A DNA stretch of 22,277 nucleotides from a virus. Made by a program: the position numbers and the translations under genes. This document shows positions 1 through 22,277 of this stretch, one piece after another (the stretch's first letter is position 1; the number at the start of each line of letters is the position of its first letter). The notes under the pieces are model-generated. The model was given only the letters and a program-made list of their open reading frames with translations. It was not told the origin of the DNA and did not search any database. Location: IMG/VR virus record IMGVR_UViG_3300025887_000158, positions 1-22,277 of that record; one strand, 5' to 3'.

Positions 1-3000
1 GTCAGTGAAGCTGTCGGACATATCCTGTGCTGGGTTTTCCAGCCAAGCATCAGAGACGGCTTCGTTGATCAACGCTGAAAGTGTGTCGATGCCGTCGGCA
101 GGCATCTCCAGACCGTCAAAGACAGGTAGAGTTTTCAGTGCTGTTGGATCCAGAGATTCCTTGGCGAAGTAATTCACCATCATCTTTGCGTCACCCCGGG
201 AGATCGTCAGAAGAGCAGAGACTTTTACGCCTGCTTCTGCTGGACGTGGGATCGTTGCATTTCCGGAATATTCGTTATCCATGCTCCGGAAGAATTCATC
301 TTGCGACTTCGATGCTGCTTTGTTCGAGAGGTTCAGGTGGTGCTCATCATTCTGGATCGGAGCGATCACGGCCCCAAACTTGGCCATCTTGTCGAACACA
401 GCTTGATAATCATTCTCACTCATGAAGTCGGCGCCGCCCAGCTCACCCTTTTCCCGCTTCTCTTTGAGGACTTCTTGCACGGCATTGTCGAAGCGCGTGA
501 TCAGGATCAAAGACTGAGCCTGTGTAGCCTTCTGGAAGACTTCAAGTGTGGACTGGGTCCCGCCCATCATCTGTTTAATGGCCGCGTTCATTGGTGACAC
601 AAACAGGTTCTGCAGGTTCGTCGACAGCATCGCCATATTTCCACGGCTCAGCTGAAAATTGACGCCATCGTTGATGTCCCCCAGAGGGTGGCGCTTCTTA
701 TCGAAGTCCTTGTCAGTGACATACCATTCGGTTTTGCCCCCTTTGCGAGACTTGCCCACACGGGTTGTGGTCAACATCGTCAGGTCTTTAGCCAGTGTGG
801 GATAATTCTGCAGGCTTGGGACGTCCGACAACTGCAGGCTTGGGTCTGCCAGATCGACACGCATCTGCTCCAGCTCGGTCATCTTCTGGTACAGGACCTC
901 TGTTACCGCAGAAGTAACTTTGTTGGCTATGCCTTTGACTCCAGAGCCATAAACGGTCACCGTCAGTGGGTTCTTCAGGATGCCCCGCCCAATGACCAAC
1001 TCGCCCTTCTCGTTGAAGCTGGCGTCTTTGATCAGGTAGTTCATGATGTTGTTTACGGCCGTCATGTGCCCTTGGGCTTTTGTCCCCATGACACTTTTCT
1101 GGACCTTAGCAAGTTCGTTCTGGAACAGCACAGCCGCTGTCTCGTACAGATCGACGCTGTCGCCTTTGATGTATTCGTTCAGGGTCTTGCCCTGCTCGTT
1201 GGGGTAAAACCCGCCCTTAGCCATGTTCAAAAGCTGTGACGCATCAAACTTCCCAGTCAGGAAGTGGATCATCGCATTGATCGGGCCGTCGGTTTTACCG
1301 TCTGCCTCGAGGGAGAGGTTGTGCTTGAAGCTTGTCAGGGCTTCTCCACCTTCCGCTACAGCCAGGTTATATTGGGCAACTGAAAGAATGGCGTGCAGTA
1401 TTTTCGGTGTGCCTTCGCCGCCAAGTTCACCCAGAAGGACGTCTTTTTGGGCTTGGCTCAACTCGCCTCCGGCTTCCAGGAACTCCTCCATCACAGTGAT
1501 CGAGTCACCGAATTTCTCGAAGATCTTCTCCTGGACAATGTCGATACCGTCGGCCCGGGCTTCTTTCTCTGTCTTCACCAGATCAGAGGACTGGGCCACA
1601 GTGAGCCAGAACAGCTCCCTGCCCTTCTCCGTCGTCATATCAAGCGTCGATACCGTGGCGACGAAAGCTTCCCGCATTGTCTTGTCCGACTGGGGGTTAA
1701 AGCCATCAGCATGGATACGTTCGTTTGAGACCACATACCAATCGAAGTGTGTCTCTACCTCGTCGGGGTTCTTGCCTTCTCTGTCGGCATAGCCCTCCAG
1801 CTGAGCATTATGGCTTTCCACTCCATTCCAGGAATAGTCGACAGAGTTATTCTTGCCTTGGATCGAAACCACGTCGACTTTGTTCATCCGGGTCTCTTCA
1901 ATTACCCGCTTGCCCATCAGCTCACCAAAGGTCTCCCGGCCGATCGCCTGCATCATATTGAGATACGGCGTGTTCCGCATGAACGCGATATCCTGGTGCC
2001 GCCTCAGAGCCTTGGTCATCTTCGCACCAAGCTTGCCGAGTGGGTTGTTCTTCTGGCTCTTGCGAACAGCGTCCGGTGTCTGATCAAAGTAGAACGCACG
2101 CTCAGCTTCTGGGAGAAACGCATCCTGCAGGAACATACGTGTTCCCTTCAGCTGCTCGATGACCTCTGCAGAAGTTTCGTTCGTCAGCTGAATGAAAATA
2201 GCATCTGCTGTGACGCCTGTTTCGGCTATTTCAAGCTCGAAGGTGGACTTGGTCACCAAGTGCCCGTCCATGACTGATAGCAGTTCAGCAGCGATTGCCT
2301 GAGATATCCCCAAAGTATCCGACATAGGGGCATCTTTGTTGGTGGTTACACCCCAGAATTCCCGGATGGTTCTGGCGAGAGATTCAGCAGCAGTATTTGC
2401 ACCCAGACCAGAGTTGGCAGCGTGCATCATTCCTGGTGTCACGGCGTCTTCTTCGACACCAAATATCTTGGCGACCTCCTCCGCAGAGTTGTTCCGGCTG
2501 CCGGATGTGTTCATCGTCCAATGCAAGGCGGCCAGTGCTGCTGCCTGGATCAAACGTGGATCGTACACCTCTGCTTCTGGATCAACCAAGTTGAGGGCCC
2601 GTGTTTCACGGAAGCCTGTGTAGTCCTTGTCTTGCGCCAGAGCTTCCAGCGGTGTCAGCTTTCCACTGCTGAGAGCTTTCTTCTTGGTTTTCAGAGACGC
2701 ATTCATGCGATTGACCAAGCCACCGACTTGGCGTTCGATGAGCGTGTTCCAGGCTTTGATCTGGTCTTGGTCCATCCGGTAGTTCAGCGCCAGCTGATCC
2801 CGGTACGTCTCGTAGGAACCAAGGAGCTCTAGAACACCCCGGGCCGGGTTATCACTTTGCATCAACAGAGACTTCTTGGTGTCGACTGTGTAGGCCCGCA
2901 CGAAACGAACGACGCCTTTGGCTGTCTTGGCTAGGTTATCAAAGCTGAGGCTTCTTCCGGGTTCAGCAATGACAGAGTCACTTGCTGGTTCAGTTCCCGC

Positions 3001-6000
3001 TTCATCTTGGTCCGGAGTGCTTTGCGACACGCTCTCCGTGACGCTTTCCTCAGCAATTTGTTCTCCTGTAATTTCCTGAGAAACAACCTCTTGTTCGCTT
3101 TCTGCTCCGACTTCGACAGATACTGCGACATTCTGCTGCTCCTGAGTTTGGACTACTTCTTGGGTGGCAGCTTCCTCAGTCTCTCCAGGAAGCCCTTGGG
3201 TATCTTCGATGACGGGTGCACTGGTTCCCGCATCAGCTTCTTCGACGGCAGGGATTTTTCCTCCGGCTTGTCCGATGGTTTCTTCAACGTAAGCTACTCC
3301 TTTAGGCATCAGTGTTTTTGCTACATCAGCGTCGATGAGCAACATTAGGGCGCCGATCTCAGCGAAGAGTTCCGAAGCCAGAATTGCAGGGTCTTCCTGA
3401 CCCAGAGCGTATTCAAAATACTCGGCCATTTCCGGGTCTGATTCAACAAGTCCCAGGACTTCTGCGTGTATTTTGCCACCCACCATCAGCTCGTTTTGTT
3501 CCATGGATGCTGTGCGGCCGAAGGTCTTTGAGGCCGCCGCATCAATCATGTGCATCAGCTCGTGATACGCAACGTGAATCCCATCTTTGTCGACACCCGC
3601 AATCATCTTCTTCAAGACAGACGGCTTCAAAGAGAGCACCCGCTCGGTCCAGTAAGCTTGACCCAGATGATCTTTTTCTGGCGACTTGAGCCAGGCTATC
3701 CGACGAATAAGTGAGGGGGCGAGATTGAACCTTTCGAGGATAGGGTTCACTACGTCCCGCACCTGTTGAACCCTCTGAGGGATCATTGGCAGGCTCTCAA
3801 CGTCAGCTTCCCAGCCATTAACCGAAGTCAGTAACTGGTCATCGGTCATCGCATCGAAGTCAGCTTTTGTCCGTGTCTCGTTGTCGGCCAGCTCCAGCGC
3901 ATCAGGCTCGGCTTCGTTGACAATCGTTTCAGGCTCAATCTGATCCACAACCTCGGTTGTCTCTACTGGAGTAACCTCAACAGGGTCCGCTACATTCTCG
4001 GTATTTTCCTGAACTGCAGGGGCCGGTGTAGCTTCACGCAACGGTGGCAAAGCCTGACCAGTCAACTCACTGCCGTAGATCGTGATCAGATTGTTGTAGA
4101 GATTGGACACAGTCTCTGCGTCGATCGCTGCTTCTTTTCCCAGCTGAATCGAATTCGGGGAGTTTGCGTTGATCCCTATCTTGCCTGCATTGTCCTTGTT
4201 GGCCTCAATCCAGGCAACTCCAGTCCATGTGCGATAGGGCACAGTGTTGTTCTTGGATTTCCCAAGCGCAAACGACTCTCTGGCTGCCTTCACTTTGTTC
4301 TGCATGTGCTCGCCAAAGTTCCGGAGGTTATCCAGTGCAAGCTGTGCCATGAGTTGATCGCCATTGTTCAGCGATGTCACGATGCCTGAAAGGTGGCGGG
4401 ACAAGCCGATCTGTCCAGCCTCATCGTCTTTACCTTCAGTGAGGATTTCGCGGCGCACGATGTCGACAGTCTTTCGGGCCTGTTTACCCGCACCCGTTGG
4501 TTGGGCTTGGATCACAGCTGTGGTCTCGGCGACCATGGCTTCCTTCTTTTCAGAAGCTGCGTTGGCTTCTTTGGCGATAGCGGCCGCTGCTTCCAGACGT
4601 TTCATGACTTTGTCTGAGAACTGGATCTTGCCCTTGCTGCGCTGATCCAGAATGGAATCAACGAACTTCGGATCAATGCCGGCAGGGTTCGACTGGGCTA
4701 TCTGAATGGTCCGGGCCAAGGCATCCTTGACCTCAGGGCTGTTGATGTTCCTGTCGGTTATCTCCGGCAGGGAGCCAGGTTCGAAAGATGCGCTCTGTGC
4801 TTGCTCTACAGCCTTTTGCAGTGTCGGGTTCGCCAGTATCGTATCCACGGCAGCCTGGCTTGCAGCAGCCATCTCCTGGATCTCTGCAGGCAGGCTGGAC
4901 ATGTCCTCGTTGCGCAGGGCCTCAAATGCTTTTGCCTGCTCATAGAGCCAGAGAGACGCAGCCTCGGTGTCTTGTGCGGACTGGTTTCCAGACTCGATCT
5001 CAGTCAGCAGTCCTGACAGCACATCCAATCGATCGACCTGCAGGTCATCAGGGATCACTTCCCCCTCGCCTGCTATCAATCGCTTCACGGCATCAGGTGT
5101 CTCGTTCACCTCGGGCCCGGTCATGACCAAAGCTTCCTTGGCACGTTGCATAGGAGACTTCTGGGCAGGCTCTGCCTCTACAGTCTCGACACTTTCAGCA
5201 ACTATAGGTTCGCTCTGAACAACCGCTGCTAGGCTTGTCTTGGCTGTTTCAACTGCTTCAGTTCGAGCCACTGATCCAACTGGAGAAGCGGCATCCTGAG
5301 CAGCTGCAATGCTTTGGACCCGGCCATCAATAGCTCGTCCAGCTGCTCTCACAGTTCCTTTTGCCCCTGCCACGACACCGTCACGAAGAAGTCCCGGCGC
5401 TTGCAAAGTGGCAGCCATACCAGCACCACCGACGGCACCCATGGCCACAGCTTCACCAACCGTGTCACCGACTTGGCGGAATTTATCAGCTTGGGTCTTT
5501 ACACCAAGGTCAGTCGTCAGTTCACCGGTTCCAGACTGGAAACCTTCTTCCAACGTCTCTTTGCCGATGTCCTGCAAACTCCGGGTCAAGGAAGTTGTCT
5601 TGAGAGGATTTGCCTGGAAACGGGAAACCGCTTTACCAGCCACGATTGCGAGAGGGAGTTGCACTGCAGCACCCAGCAAACCAGCATCGTTGGCGACACC
5701 TCGTTGTGCCTCTTCGTGAGTGTCCCCTTGCCGGCGCATCTCTTTGTAGGCTTCGCTGGCAACAGACAGCTCATCTTCGCTCATGCCCATGACTTCGTTG
5801 ACAGCCTGTGAGTACACGCCCCCAGATTCAGTCAGACCAATGGCGCCAGTCGTTACAGCACCTTGTGAGAGTGTCGGAGCCACACGGCTCCCCAGCTTTC
5901 CAAGAGCCAGTGGCACCGCAAAGGAGCCAGCAGACTCACCGACCAGTGATCCCGCCATTGCTGGATCTTGGGCCATATTTGCAAAGGTATTCCCCACGTC

Positions 6001-6702
6001 CCGACCGAACTTTCCCAGAACGTCAGTCATGGTGGGCTCATCTATTGCGTCATAGATCTTGTTTGAATCGACCGAGTCTTGGTTCTGGAGGCGTCCGAAA
6101 GACTCTCTTCGCTCACTCAGTTCACTGGACTGAAACCCTTTCAGGCTCTGGCTCAATGAAGACGCACCTTGGGAGATCGCTGTACCAGCGTTTTCATTCA
6201 CAGCACCGACCGCAAGTCCTGCAACACCACCGACAGCTGCCGCTGCTCCGGAACCAACATCAAGGAGGGTATCTCCGATACGTTGTTCAGCAGTTCGTCC
6301 AGCATCCAGGCTTGAATTGAAGCGCTGCTTTTCCTCGATCAGTTTGTAACGGTTCCGGGCAACATCTTCGCCGTACTTTTGAACCAGAGAACCGAAGTCC
6401 ATGTCCTGCAAATCACGTACAACCGGATCTTCTGAAAGAGTGTTCCCACCTCGTTCTGCCGCGGCAATATCACGTTGGGCATCCGGCCCACCCAGTACAA
6501 TCTGCTTGGCCCGGGAGACCTCGTTGACCTTGTTCTGCTTGTCCGATGGCTTTGCGCCTAAGCGACGAAGCGTCTCCGATGCGAGGTCACCCGGCTGATT
6601 GGGGGCCACAGGTGTGATATTTGGAGCAGGAGCAATTCCGGCTTCCCCCAGTATCTTGTCGAATGCGGAGTTGATGGGGTTTACGCCTGGTACTTCGGCC
6701 AT
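1..6702 (-). CDS. Giant virion-encapsidated RNA polymerase, N4 gp50-like (C-terminus beyond window)
   Basis: Single-subunit T7-like RNA polymerase that, in N4, is packaged in the capsid, injected with the DNA and transcribes early genes from hairpin promoters. 2234 residues are open here and the frame runs off the left edge; N4's protein is 3500 residues. Motifs seen: an arginine (R1662) followed by FNPQ (1668-1671), in the place of the T/DxxGR motif; motif A with D1805 (TDGPINAMIHF); motif B R1906-x3-K1910-x3-T-x3-Y1918-G; motif C D2196 (FDGLEMPAD). The spacing R-D-K-Y-D is close to N4's R424, D559, K670, Y678, D951. Upstream are Gly/Ala-rich hydrophobic stretches (about residues 139-430), an acidic linker, an HELMH domain (H1047, E1048, H1051) and a second acidic linker ending near 1251. 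The ATG at 6702 has a good ribosome site (GAGG, about 6 nt spacing). Last gene of the visible late block, separated from its upstream neighbour by a terminator. Confidence 0.93.
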   Translation of the reverse strand, partial: MAEVPGVNPINSAFDKILGEAGIAPAPNITPVAPNQPGDLASETLRRLGAKPSDKQNKVNEVSRAKQIVLGGPDAQRDIAAAERGGNTLSEDPVVRDLQDMDFGSLVQKYGEDVARNRYKLIEEKQRFNSSLDAGRTAEQRIGDTLLDVGSGAAAAVGGVAGLAVGAVNENAGTAISQGASSLSQSLKGFQSSELSERRESFGRLQNQDSVDSNKIYDAIDEPTMTDVLGKFGRDVGNTFANMAQDPAMAGSLVGESAGSFAVPLALGKLGSRVAPTLSQGAVTTGAIGLTESGGVYSQAVNEVMGMSEDELSVASEAYKEMRRQGDTHEEAQRGVANDAGLLGAAVQLPLAIVAGKAVSRFQANPLKTTSLTRSLQDIGKETLEEGFQSGTGELTTDLGVKTQADKFRQVGDTVGEAVAMGAVGGAGMAATLQAPGLLRDGVVAGAKGTVRAAGRAIDGRVQSIAAAQDAASPVGSVARTEAVETAKTSLAAVVQSEPIVAESVETVEAEPAQKSPMQRAKEALVMTGPEVNETPDAVKRLIAGEGEVIPDDLQVDRLDVLSGLLTEIESGNQSAQDTEAASLWLYEQAKAFEALRNEDMSSLPAEIQEMAAASQAAVDTILANPTLQKAVEQAQSASFEPGSLPEITDRNINSPEVKDALARTIQIAQSNPAGIDPKFVDSILDQRSKGKIQFSDKVMKRLEAAAAIAKEANAASEKKEAMVAETTAVIQAQPTGAGKQARKTVDIVRREILTEGKDDEAGQIGLSRHLSGIVTSLNNGDQLMAQLALDNLRNFGEHMQNKVKAARESFALGKSKNNTVPYRTWTGVAWIEANKDNAGKIGINANSPNSIQLGKEAAIDAETVSNLYNNLITIYGSELTGQALPPLREATPAPAVQENTENVADPVEVTPVETTEVVDQIEPETIVNEAEPDALELADNETRTKADFDAMTDDQLLTSVNGWEADVESLPMIPQRVQQVRDVVNPILERFNLAPSLIRRIAWLKSPEKDHLGQAYWTERVLSLKPSVLKKMIAGVDKDGIHVAYHELMHMIDAAASKTFGRTASMEQNELMVGGKIHAEVLGLVESDPEMAEYFEYALGQEDPAILASELFAEIGALMLLIDADVAKTLMPKGVAYVEETIGQAGGKIPAVEEADAGTSAPVIEDTQGLPGETEEAATQEVVQTQEQQNVAVSVEVGAESEQEVVSQEITGEQIAEESVTESVSQSTPDQDEAGTEPASDSVIAEPGRSLSFDNLAKTAKGVVRFVRAYTVDTKKSLLMQSDNPARGVLELLGSYETYRDQLALNYRMDQDQIKAWNTLIERQVGGLVNRMNASLKTKKKALSSGKLTPLEALAQDKDYTGFRETRALNLVDPEAEVYDPRLIQAAALAALHWTMNTSGSRNNSAEEVAKIFGVEEDAVTPGMMHAANSGLGANTAAESLARTIREFWGVTTNKDAPMSDTLGISQAIAAELLSVMDGHLVTKSTFELEIAETGVTADAIFIQLTNETSAEVIEQLKGTRMFLQDAFLPEAERAFYFDQTPDAVRKSQKNNPLGKLGAKMTKALRRHQDIAFMRNTPYLNMMQAIGRETFGELMGKRVIEETRMNKVDVVSIQGKNNSVDYSWNGVESHNAQLEGYADREGKNPDEVETHFDWYVVSNERIHADGFNPQSDKTMREAFVATVSTLDMTTEKGRELFWLTVAQSSDLVKTEKEARADGIDIVQEKIFEKFGDSITVMEEFLEAGGELSQAQKDVLLGELGGEGTPKILHAILSVAQYNLAVAEGGEALTSFKHNLSLEADGKTDGPINAMIHFLTGKFDASQLLNMAKGGFYPNEQGKTLNEYIKGDSVDLYETAAVLFQNELAKVQKSVMGTKAQGHMTAVNNIMNYLIKDASFNEKGELVIGRGILKNPLTVTVYGSGVKGIANKVTSAVTEVLYQKMTELEQMRVDLADPSLQLSDVPSLQNYPTLAKDLTMLTTTRVGKSRKGGKTEWYVTDKDFDKKRHPLGDINDGVNFQLSRGNMAMLSTNLQNLFVSPMNAAIKQMMGGTQSTLEVFQKATQAQSLILITRFDNAVQEVLKEKREKGELGGADFMSENDYQAVFDKMAKFGAVIAPIQNDEHHLNLSNKAASKSQDEFFRSMDNEYSGNATIPRPAEAGVKVSALLTISRGDAKMMVNYFAKESLDPTALKTLPVFDGLEMPADGIDTLSALINEAVSDAWLENPAQDMSDSFTD
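3270..3880 (-). other. Probable zinc-metallopeptidase domain inside the virion RNA polymerase
   Basis: Domain of roughly 200 residues (about 942-1144 of the polymerase). It carries the zincin motif HELMH at residues 1047-1051 (codons 3564-3550). A segment SELFAEIGAL follows about 64 residues later, and either E1111 or E1115 could be the third zinc ligand, as in gluzincins. The pattern of HExxH followed by a Glu in an ELxAE-type helix is known from peptidase domains in large polyvalent phage proteins. The domain is bounded on both sides by acidic, Pro/Glu/Thr-rich segments that look disordered, which supports a separately folded unit. Peptidase activity is inferred from the motif only. It could be an inactive or structural fold. 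Confidence 0.6.
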
Positions 6703-6731
6703 GGAATTCCTCACAGGATTCGCAGAAAAAT

Positions 6732-6758
6732 AGGGGGAAACCATTTAGGTTTCCCCCT
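6732..6758 (-). terminator. Rho-independent terminator upstream of the virion RNA polymerase gene
   Basis: Perfect inverted repeat with 11-bp arms (6732-6742 and 6748-6758, core GGGGGAAACC/GGTTTCCCCC) and a 5-nt loop. On the minus strand the stem is followed directly by TATTTTT, a U-tract. On the plus strand only a short TTT follows, so it works mainly on minus transcripts. It lies in the 147-nt gap after the 597-residue protein gene and before the vRNAP start codon at 6702. The rest of the gap (6759-6849) is AT-rich and contains no gene; I do not see a convincing bacterial promoter there. Confidence 0.85.
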
Positions 6759-6849: not shown

Positions 6850-8643
6850 TTAGTTTCCCCCCGAAAGAACCTGAGCTGCTTGCTCGGCCTGAATTCTGGT
6901 TTCATCAGTCCGTGGCAGGGTGCTCACTCTCGCCAGCAATTGCTGAACCACAGTATTCATCTGCTGTGCATCCAGCTGAGCAAGCTCCCCGGGAGCAATT
7001 CCAGTCACACCACTGACAATTTCCAGAGCAGCATTCTGAACAGCCTGCGCTTCATTTTGAATTGCAGCCTGGGCAGGGGATCCTGCAGCCGCAGGTGCAG
7101 CAGCTTGGCCACCTACGATCGGGTTATTCGCATAGATGTTTGTTGCAGCGTCGACTTTCTGTGCCAACGTTTTGCGCAGGGCAGCCGCCTCGCTTGCGTT
7201 ACCACGAGACTCCTGCAATCGAACCTGGCGGCTCAGGTCTTCAATCTCACCGCGGATACTTTCTGCTCCAGCCTTGTTCTGGTTCCCAAGCGTTTCAACC
7301 TCATTGGCTGCACGCTGACTTTCAACAGAACCAAGGTTACCCAGGAGCGCAATTGCCTCGTCTGGGTCGAAGCGTGTCTGACTGCCATCTTGTCCATCAA
7401 ATGGTACGAAGCGACGGCCACGGCCGACCGTTTCAGCCAAAGCTGCAGCAGCTTCCGCAGGAGATACACCTGCTTCTTTCGCAACTCGGTTCATGGCCGC
7501 CTGTACCTGACCAGGACTATCGTCGGTCAGGGCTTGATCTGCTAATGTCGAAGCCGGATCAGGTGTGGCGTATGTGCTTGTTGCGTTGGTCTTGATCCGT
7601 ACACCTTGGTTCCGTGCAAGTGCCTGATTCTGCTCGCTTTCGAACTGCTGCAGAGCCACCTCGGCAGTCGCAACACCAGGTAGTGGAGCTGCATTGGGGT
7701 CGTTTGGTGCTGTCTGAATTCCAGCAACATCAATTGCCCCCTCACCAGTCAAGCGAGCCAACACAGCAGTCTTATCCTGGGCCGGAATATCCATATCCGC
7801 CACAAGACGTGGGATGTCTTGTTGGTTCGTAGCTGTGCCGGCAACCTGATAGGCCAACTCTTCGACCCGTGTAGCCCGGTCCCGTCCTTCCAAAGTCTGG
7901 TCGAACGTATCGTCCCGGCCTCTGTCTGCATCCTCAGCAACACGTTGAGTGTTGAAGGTTTCCACGTTCCCGTTGATGAGGTCGTTTACGCGCTCAGGGC
8001 TCAGAAGTCTCGTTCCTTCCCCTCCGTTAGCGTTCGCCAATAGCTGGGAAATACGATCAGGACGTGTATCTGGATTCACCGACTGTGGGGAGCCAGGCAA
8101 GAGAGCCTCACCACCAACCACTCCACCAGGGAGAGGCGCAATGCCAGTTCCTTCTGGAGCCAAGTAGCCTCCGCCTGCGGTGTTAGCCTGCTCTCGGATA
8201 CGGGCAATCTCCGACGCCAAGGCACCTGCTTCATCTTGTTCTGCAAACTCACGAGCCTGCTTTGCCGATAAACGAGCATTGTCTGCATTCGTTTTACCCG
8301 TGCGGGCATTGATACCCCGGGTCTCTGCATTAGTCTTGTCGTACCCAAGTCCCCGACCACGTAAGGCCAGCATTGCTGCCTGCAGCTCTGGCGTCATATC
8401 AGACGAGTTGATCTGTGCGGAGATACGCTCCAGAGCAGGGTCAACCTGCTTGGCATTCGCAACTCCTGCAAGGATATCTGTGGCAGTGGCGCTACGGTTC
8501 GATTTCTGCGTACCCCGCAAAGTCGAGATGTTGTCCCCGACACCATTCAAGCCGCCAGCAAAGTTGCCAACGGCATCATTTAGTAGTCTCCCAGCTGCGC
8601 TGAAATCGGGGCCGTCAACGTTACGCCATGTCAATGGTGCCAT
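6850..8643 (-). CDS. Putative internal virion (ejection) protein, N4 gp51-53 region
   Basis: 597-residue Ala/Gln/Asn-rich protein without a membrane segment or obvious enzyme motif. It begins MAPLTWRNVDGPDFS, an N-terminal pattern I associate with internal core or ejection proteins of podoviruses, followed by long helical, low-complexity stretches. Its position between a gp14-like small protein and the virion RNA polymerase matches the block of N4 virion proteins below gp54. A role in capsid-interior assembly or delivery of the vRNAP is inferred from context. The start ATG at 8643 follows the upstream stop by 11 nt with AAGG about 9 nt before it. Exact orthology to an N4 gene number could not be fixed without a search. 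Confidence 0.8.
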   Translation of the reverse strand: MAPLTWRNVDGPDFSAAGRLLNDAVGNFAGGLNGVGDNISTLRGTQKSNRSATATDILAGVANAKQVDPALERISAQINSSDMTPELQAAMLALRGRGLGYDKTNAETRGINARTGKTNADNARLSAKQAREFAEQDEAGALASEIARIREQANTAGGGYLAPEGTGIAPLPGGVVGGEALLPGSPQSVNPDTRPDRISQLLANANGGEGTRLLSPERVNDLINGNVETFNTQRVAEDADRGRDDTFDQTLEGRDRATRVEELAYQVAGTATNQQDIPRLVADMDIPAQDKTAVLARLTGEGAIDVAGIQTAPNDPNAAPLPGVATAEVALQQFESEQNQALARNQGVRIKTNATSTYATPDPASTLADQALTDDSPGQVQAAMNRVAKEAGVSPAEAAAALAETVGRGRRFVPFDGQDGSQTRFDPDEAIALLGNLGSVESQRAANEVETLGNQNKAGAESIRGEIEDLSRQVRLQESRGNASEAAALRKTLAQKVDAATNIYANNPIVGGQAAAPAAAGSPAQAAIQNEAQAVQNAALEIVSGVTGIAPGELAQLDAQQMNTVVQQLLARVSTLPRTDETRIQAEQAAQVLSGGN

Positions 8644-19056: not shown

Positions 19057-19575
19057 TCATGTCCCTCTAAGTCCATCGAGGCAGAGATCTCTCTCTTCCA
19101 ATCGACGAGTTACGAGTCCGGGTAGAACTCGGAGCGGCCGGCCAGCTTTGGTGTAGAGCATCATTGCCTCACAGGCCTGAACCTTCTTGCCCATGTTCCA
19201 GCGCTTTAAAGCAATATTCCGGCAATATATTCCGGGACCCAAGTTGTAGGTGAACGACAGGAACGCAGCCTCAGTTTTCACTGGCATGTCCCCTTTGGTG
19301 CAGGACCTCATTTGTTTGAGAAAGCCCTCAAGACGGGGCGCCAGCATCTGCGTGCATTCCGCTTTGCTTTTGCTCTGACCCAGCTCCACACCGAGGGTTT
19401 CCCCGAAGCAGATTGTGGGAATGCCAACTGGGTCGAGGTACGCATCTGTCCTCAGTCCCTCGCTGACCATCACCAGGGGCAGTGCAACAGTTATCGCTGT
19501 GGCGGCTGCAATGGTCGCTATAGGTCTTTTCATGGGGCGGCGTTTGAACACTGCCCTGAGCCAATTACTTATCAT
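19057..19575 (-). CDS. SAR endolysin, GH24 lysozyme family
   Basis: 172 residues. It hydrolyses the glycan strands of peptidoglycan at lysis. The catalytic triad E39-x8-D48-x5-T54 is seen in SEGLRTDAYLDPVGIPT, as in T4/P1/P21-type lysozymes. Before it is a moderately hydrophobic, Ala/Thr-rich segment (about residues 19-37) flanked by basic residues, fitting a signal-anchor-release domain that tethers the enzyme in the membrane until the membrane is depolarised. The cysteines (C57, C75, C92, C118 among them) could take part in disulfide control, as in P1 Lyz. The start at 19575 overlaps the holin-like stop by 11 nt. A second ATG at 19533 would still keep the SAR segment. Confidence 0.92.
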   Translation of the reverse strand: MISNWLRAVFKRRPMKRPIATIAAATAITVALPLVMVSEGLRTDAYLDPVGIPTICFGETLGVELGQSKSKAECTQMLAPRLEGFLKQMRSCTKGDMPVKTEAAFLSFTYNLGPGIYCRNIALKRWNMGKKVQACEAMMLYTKAGRPLRVLPGLVTRRLEERDLCLDGLRGT

Positions 19576-21014: not shown

Positions 21015-22277
21015 TTACTCCCTTATGACCCAAACGCGAACAACTCCGTCGCCGCCTGTTCCCGCGCCCGCTGGCGAAGATGCCGTGTAGTCTGTGTCTC
21101 GACCGCCACCGCCGCCGCCGGGGAACATGCCGTTTCTCAAAGCCGCTGCCGTAGAGCCAGTGCCACCACCCATACCGCCTCCTCCCGCATACATAGAAGG
21201 ACCACCGCCTGCGTCGCTGCTGTTGTTCGTTGACCCACCGCCGCCGCCGCCGCCGCCAGCTATGGACGATTTACCAGTTCCAGACGTCGCGTTACCAGCG
21301 CCGCCATCGCCACCGCCTTGGCCCAAGTCTGCCGCAGGTACAGTTCCATTCGCGCGACCTTCGACTTGGCCGCCATTTGCACCACTTGTGTTGCCAACAT
21401 TTGGACCACCCGTCCCACCGTACCCGATCAGGTATTCAAAAGTTCCTGATGATCCGAACGTGGTGTTACCGCCGTTTGCCGCCGCCGTTGCGCCACCTGC
21501 GCCCACGACCAGCGAGACGCTCGCCGGAAGATCATCTACTTCGTTAAAACGTTGAAATGCACCGCCACCGCCGCCGCCGCCCGAGCCACCGAAAGAGCTT
21601 TGCCCTCCAGCACCACCGCCGCCGACCACATGGACAAGGACCTTATCGCCACTCGCGGCAGAAACGGGTTTTGTCCAAGTGCCAGAAGTCAGGAACTCTT
21701 GGTAATCAACCACAAGGCTTGCGCTAGTCGCACCTGCGAGGGCGTAACGAGCGTCCCCCTTCTGTCGCGTGATGATCGTTGTGCTGGCAGGAGCAGACGT
21801 GCCCCCAGCGTCAAAACGAGCCGCGATGGCTCCGGCAGTTAGGTCATCGTTAGCTGATGGGATCAGATATACGCCAAGTGTTTCAGCGTCACCTTGGATC
21901 AAGAAGTCTGTTGCTGAGGTAGAATTATCTTTAAGGAGTAGCGTCGGCTTGAAACTCTCAATCCTAATAGAAGCACTCTCCCGTGTGCCAGCCGAGTTAA
22001 CACCAGCAGTGTTGGTCAGCACACCAGAGATGGTCGTGTTCTCGGTGAACGTGTTAGCAGCTCCTAGTTGAGCATATCGTAAATCGCCATTGCTGCGCGA
22101 GACCACACTTTTAGTCTGGGTCAACCCACCGCCTCTGTCAAACCGGGCAAGCGAAGAAGCCCCTGTGTAACCGGGGCCAGTATATGTGCCGATGGTGACA
22201 GAGCCGTCTGTCGTGGTGATGTACGACCCTTGGATAGCCTCAACCTGATCCGTTTCTTTGAACTTGATGATCGGTAC
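21015..22277 (-). CDS. Tail fibre-like protein with glycine-rich C-terminal domain (N-terminus beyond window)
   Basis: The frame is open from the right edge, so at least 420 residues are present and the true start lies outside; an internal TTG at 22124 should not be taken as the start. The N-terminal visible part carries two related modules ending in GDLRYAQLG and GDARYALAG, each preceded by an ARFD-x-GG segment; these repeats are typical of long phage tail fibres. After FLTSGTWTKP the last 210 residues are Gly-rich with runs of up to seven glycines, a domain found at the tips of many phage fibres and adhesins. Likely role: host receptor binding. It is followed by the accessory gene after 3 nt. 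Confidence 0.88.
   Translation of the reverse strand, partial: VPIIKFKETDQVEAIQGSYITTTDGSVTIGTYTGPGYTGASSLARFDRGGGLTQTKSVVSRSNGDLRYAQLGAANTFTENTTISGVLTNTAGVNSAGTRESASIRIESFKPTLLLKDNSTSATDFLIQGDAETLGVYLIPSANDDLTAGAIAARFDAGGTSAPASTTIITRQKGDARYALAGATSASLVVDYQEFLTSGTWTKPVSAASGDKVLVHVVGGGGAGGQSSFGGSGGGGGGGAFQRFNEVDDLPASVSLVVGAGGATAAANGGNTTFGSSGTFEYLIGYGGTGGPNVGNTSGANGGQVEGRANGTVPAADLGQGGGDGGAGNATSGTGKSSIAGGGGGGGGSTNNSSDAGGGPSMYAGGGGMGGGTGSTAAALRNGMFPGGGGGGRDTDYTASSPAGAGTGGDGVVRVWVIRE
21238..21255. repeat. (CCG)6 trinucleotide tract in the fibre gene
   Basis: Six perfect CCG units encode part of a glycine run. Shorter CCG tracts occur near 21101-21120 and 21565-21590. Such in-frame repeats can change copy number by slippage and so alter loop length in the fibre tip without breaking the frame. 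Confidence 0.7.

Follow-up and report, generated by a model that had tools for sequence, protein, structure and literature searches.

The roles of the virion RNA polymerase (vRNAP) of N4-like phages are well understood only for the polymerase and, in part, for the N-terminal domain (NTD). In N4, the vRNAP is ejected and its NTD is membrane-associated (PMC12633501). The locus analyzed here carries a clade-specific second peptidase-like unit at a vRNAP hinge that accepts modules, which raises the question of whether N4-like phages deliver non-polymerase enzymes as soon as infection begins and, if so, what these enzymes cut.

The window, i.e. the whole 22,277-base stretch of the virus record that was analyzed, holds the late genes of an N4-like phage according to Pfam and PHROG annotation: those for a portal, a protein annotated as tape measure, the major head protein, gp53- and gp52-like proteins and the vRNAP. 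The genes neighbouring the vRNAP match schitovirus head and tail PHROGs, and the homology of its NTD and mini-vRNAP regions, together with N4 gene order, identified it as an N4-type virion RNA polymerase. The Pfam domains N4_RNAP_helical, vRNAP_dom and vRNAP_dom_2 were found in its reading frame. Residues are numbered from the first ATG of the longest reading, and the remaining C-terminal part of the protein was taken from L006, a contig that is near-identical and mismatches at 4 of 4363 bases. The parts of the vRNAP in the window are the following.

1..6744, minus strand: vRNAP open reading frame, 2248 amino acids, open at the window end; PHROG 2206 virion RNA polymerase, E=3.5e-278
4012..6495, minus strand: N-terminal domain, residues 84-911, by phmmer to the N4 vRNAP NTD
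3841..4011, minus strand: acidic linker, residues 912-968, net charge -16, by composition
3250..3840, minus strand: M90/MtfA-like zinc-peptidase-like unit, residues ~969-1165, by homology, profile, AlphaFold2 (AF2) and Foldseek
2923..3249, minus strand: acidic linker, residues 1166-1274, net charge -24, by composition
1..2922, minus strand: polymerase core, residues 1275-2248, truncated where the window ends, by phmmer to N4 mini-vRNAP structures (e.g. 2po4) and Pfam

Homology to the N4 vRNAP ends at residue 912 and restarts at ~1169-1275 (phmmer); the alignment to the solved minimal polymerase starts at residue 1275. The hinge thus has a length of ~364 residues in the window vRNAP versus ~100 in N4, where a linker of ~100 residues between NTD and polymerase has been described (PMC12633501). 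The original prediction, made from the window sequence, had estimated ~240 extra residues before the polymerase relative to N4, which is close to this difference, and its ~200-residue unit flanked by two acidic linkers was recovered in our analysis. The HELMH motif that it placed at 1047-1051 lies at 1061-1065, the earlier count having started at Met15 and being 14 lower, and the ELFAE sequence that it noted downstream was found at 1125-1129. Candidate functional residues of the unit map as follows.

3550..3564, minus strand: HELMH, H1061-H1065; both histidines and the first glutamate invariant in all nine units, with H1061 and H1065 as candidate zinc ligands and E1062 as candidate catalytic residue
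3541..3543, minus strand: D1068, invariant and also present in MtfA (HExxHxxD)
3370..3372, minus strand: E1125, candidate third zinc ligand, aligned with the glutamate of the MtfA sequence ECFAV (3dl1)

Nine hinge units were aligned, namely that of the window phage and those of eight Rhodovirinae, to which the window unit is 19-25% identical in this alignment. Across all nine, residues H1061, E1062, H1065, D1068, G1090, E1095, E1125, F1127 and A1128 are invariant, and the glutamate that is the candidate third ligand lies 62-65 residues past the first histidine in every unit. All nine therefore show the sequence signature of zincins/gluzincins, HExxH plus a conserved downstream glutamate, and none of these homologues has lost HExxH, the case that the original prediction had named as refuting. 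Two glutamates had been offered for the third ligand, E1111 or E1115 in the earlier numbering; the first, E1125 here, stands, and the second, E1129 here, was rejected because it varies among the nine sequences.

Three of the roseophage units pass the Pfam cut-off for peptidase M90 (PF06167, 26.2 bits), those of DFL12phi1 (32.5), V13 (33.6) and RPP1 (28.4), and the R7L and SupP_AX units score slightly under it. The window unit by itself has no Pfam match. A profile built from the eight Rhodovirinae units, with the window left out, matched the window unit at 34.6 bits (iE 9e-10), and the best of 1000 shuffles reached 5.6 bits with the same profile. The closest solved sequences by profile were MtfA, at a marginal E of 0.024, and then PPEP-1/Zmp1, within an E range of 0.02-0.2. 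Like the hinge unit, MtfA/M90 proteins (PF06167; PDB 3dl1, 3khi, 9srw) have HExxHxxD followed 62-65 residues on by the E of E-x-FA; unlike M90/MtfA, which are free-standing, the window unit is embedded in a vRNAP and falls under Pfam detection when searched alone.

The AF2 model of the window unit, built from seven sequences (pLDDT 81.3, pTM 0.81), shows the core elements of a zincin in order: a helix, three strands, the HExxH helix and, further on, a helix that contains E1125. The same order of helices and strands is given for polyvalent-protein MPTases by Iyer et al. (PMC5512222). Foldseek against the PDB placed gluzincins at all of the top 22 ranks, but with weak scores (E 0.01-0.3), led by the anthrax lethal factor catalytic protein and archaeal minigluzincins, with TM no higher than 0.40 when normalised by query; across the window and roseophage models, TM values reached about 0.4-0.5. 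Viral matches of the window unit included polyvalent and SprT-like proteins. A roseophage unit gave a similar model (pLDDT 77.7) and a more mixed Foldseek list. Predicted fold and sequence thus provide good support for placing the hinge unit in the zincin/gluzincin superfamily, in agreement with the gluzincin-type fold expected at the outset; the predicted fold alone does not prove M90 as its exact family.

A search of 50,697 phage records with the window unit found Dinoroseobacter phage R7L (E=9e-5). The R7L unit in turn found 23 records, all of them roseobacter phages and all within the vRNAP, and the V13 unit again found 23. Of the 23 vRNAPs whose complete sequences were read, nine have the hinge HExxH, those of all eight Rhodovirinae and of the window phage, and the other 14, N4 included, lack it, which bears out the suggestion of a motif that one clade conserves and N4 lacks. 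A quick tree places the window phage next to the N4/ort11/JWAlpha clade; by polymerase and C-terminal domain (CTD) it lies outside the Rhodovirinae, and forced grouping with them was rejected (p-AU 0.006, quick tree). Presence of the unit requires two changes on this tree, an ancient gain followed by a loss in the N4 clade costing the same as two gains. Identity between the window and roseophage proteins is 23-29% in the NTD and 25-29% in the polymerase, and that of the hinge unit, at 21-32%, is in a like range. This similarity makes recent transfer of the unit from a roseophage unlikely and leads us to regard an old common origin followed by loss as the simpler guess; two separate gains would be the alternative of equal tree cost.

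The original prediction also knew of no such domain described for N4 vRNAP, a suggestion of novelty that was not supported. Another HExxH domain, distinct from the hinge unit, lies C-terminal to the polymerase in 23 of 23 vRNAPs examined, including that of N4 (HELVH at 2228, L007) and that of the window phage (HEMLH at 2480 in joined numbering; L006 5057-5071), and in most of them the motif is followed by NEFMAW-like candidates for the third ligand. In N4-like vRNAPs this C-terminal domain was published in 2017 as an MPTase domain (Iyer et al., PMC5512222), and the C1 subdomain of the N4 vRNAP CTD, residues 2124-2375, was seen by cryo-EM in 2025 (PMC12633501). The C1 subdomain and the hinge unit are alike in being HExxH zincin-like domains of the same polypeptide family; however, the C1-type domain follows the polymerase in all 23 vRNAPs, whereas the hinge unit precedes it in nine. 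A similar comparison holds for the polyvalent-protein MPTases, which are likewise zincin-type HExxH domains in large ejected phage proteins (PMC5512222); the hinge unit differs from them, the C-terminal vRNAP one included, in being separate, located before the polymerase and of M90-type sequence. Neither M90 nor MtfA is named in the main text of that paper. The Rhodovirinae hinge-unit profile did not match the C-terminal HExxH domain, and profile-profile comparison of the two gave a similarity of 29 columns around HExxH at a probability of 25%. These results led us to reject a recent duplication of the C-terminal MPTase as the source of the hinge unit; the two may still share a remote common origin. 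Thus, the principle of a peptidase in a vRNAP is already known, and the variant here is a second, M90-type unit in the hinge. The window vRNAP combines a polymerase and two zincin-like domains in one sequence and, by analogy with N4, would be ejected; judged from sequence, the window phage and the roseophages probably deliver two peptidase-like units versus the single one known in N4.

The hinge also accepts other modules. ART-PolyVal (PF18760) scored above cut-off upstream of the M90-like unit in the hinges of 5 of 8 Rhodovirinae vRNAPs (L005, at vRNAP residues 942-1022, L008, L009, L010 and L014); the window hinge showed no ART domain and carries the peptidase-like unit only. The vRNAP of Roseovarius Plymouth podovirus 1 (RPP1), noted with its ART domain in PMC5512222 (CBX87992.1), resembles the window vRNAP in having an extra enzymatic module, and we located this ART domain in the hinge, upstream of the M90-like unit. 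The hinge of EE36phi1 (L008) contains a clean 154-residue insertion (residues ~1049-1202) that is missing from the near-identical DSS3phi2 (L009), and PTxVEE-type linker motifs border this cassette. A linker motif, PT[AG][IV][ED], was observed in the hinges of 7 of 8 Rhodovirinae (L005, L008, L009, L011, L012, L013 and L014), often at module borders, and is absent from the window hinge; it might serve recombination between hinge modules.

Our preferred reading, held tentatively and at a little under even confidence, is that the unit is a second zinc metallopeptidase, of the M90/MtfA type, in the hinge of the ejected vRNAP. It would form a bead in the flexible hinge, with the membrane-associated NTD on one side and the polymerase core on the other, enter the host together with the polymerase and refold near the inner membrane; zinc would be held by H1061, H1065 and E1125, E1062 would act as the general base, and the unit may then cleave host proteins near the entry site. 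Activity is argued from the catalytic-type residues, which are intact and invariant in nine units, the other eight being 19-25% identical to that of the window, and host substrates are favoured because roseophage hinges also carry ART-PolyVal and the EE36phi1 cassette. Since the unit occurs in all eight Rhodovirinae despite their different hosts, a house-keeping role, self-processing for example, fits no worse than a host-specific effector. Its universality in the Rhodovirinae sampled also speaks for an alternative in which an active peptidase cuts the vRNAP's own acidic linkers, either in the head or once ejected, and frees the polymerase from the NTD. The unit sits between two long disordered acidic linkers, exactly between NTD and polymerase, and self-processing is a main role proposed for polyvalent-protein MPTases, with phage P1 DdrB as precedent (PMC5512222). 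However, the same paper states that the N4 vRNAP, its own MPTase included, is packaged unprocessed, an argument against cleavage inside the head that does not extend to cleavage after ejection, and the N4 model leaves the polymerase tethered by the linker (PMC12633501). We rank self-processing, at clearly less than even odds, below cleavage of host substrates, but it is a serious rival and nearly as plausible.

Loss of catalysis appears distinctly less probable. MtfA binds the repressor Mlc, a precedent for a non-catalytic reading, in which the zincin fold would serve the mechanics of ejection or the binding of proteins or zinc. Such a bead would suit the beads-on-a-string model of vRNAP passage (PMC12633501), but the invariance of E1062 and of all three ligand candidates at 19-25% identity would be unexpected. 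A chance HELMH in a helical linker, for which only the missing Pfam match of the window unit by itself would speak, is very improbable: for 2248 residues with the composition of this vRNAP, the expected number of HExxH motifs is ~0.018, and the 9 of 9 conservation, the profile match (iE 9e-10) and the confident zincin-like AF2 model led us to reject it. Beyond the preferred peptidase reading, it is possible, although we would not bet on it, that the NTD-polymerase hinge of schitoviruses is a payload slot for interchangeable enzymes (M90 peptidase, ADP-ribosyltransferase and others), with the M90 unit as an injected peptidase against a host target. If so, the first protein into the host would drive transcription and deliver effectors as well. 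The homologous hinge unit also occurs in roseophages whose hosts are in culture, so the question can be approached without the metagenomic phage.

Several minor observations were made along with these analyses. The loci L002-L004 from the first viral scan were discarded as false positives, having neither a vRNAP nor HExxH in a long ORF, and searches for the gp53-like protein in viral contigs, for P0001 in genome contigs and for the V13 unit in plasmids led nowhere. Directly upstream of the vRNAP, in the position of N4 gp51 (ejection tunnel), the window encodes a 597-aa protein (6850-8643, minus strand) that matched no PHROG and gave no Pfam match of significance. A phage lysozyme (PF00959, 95 bits) is encoded near the late genes (19057-19575, minus strand), and an open-ended tail protein (21015-22277, minus strand) combines a glycine-rich domain (PF21722, 45 bits) with a tail-fibre-assembly PHROG match. 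Finally, the hinge of the Escherichia phage Bas96 vRNAP (L026) holds a different, apparently globular segment at residues ~985-1125, for which Pfam gave no match.
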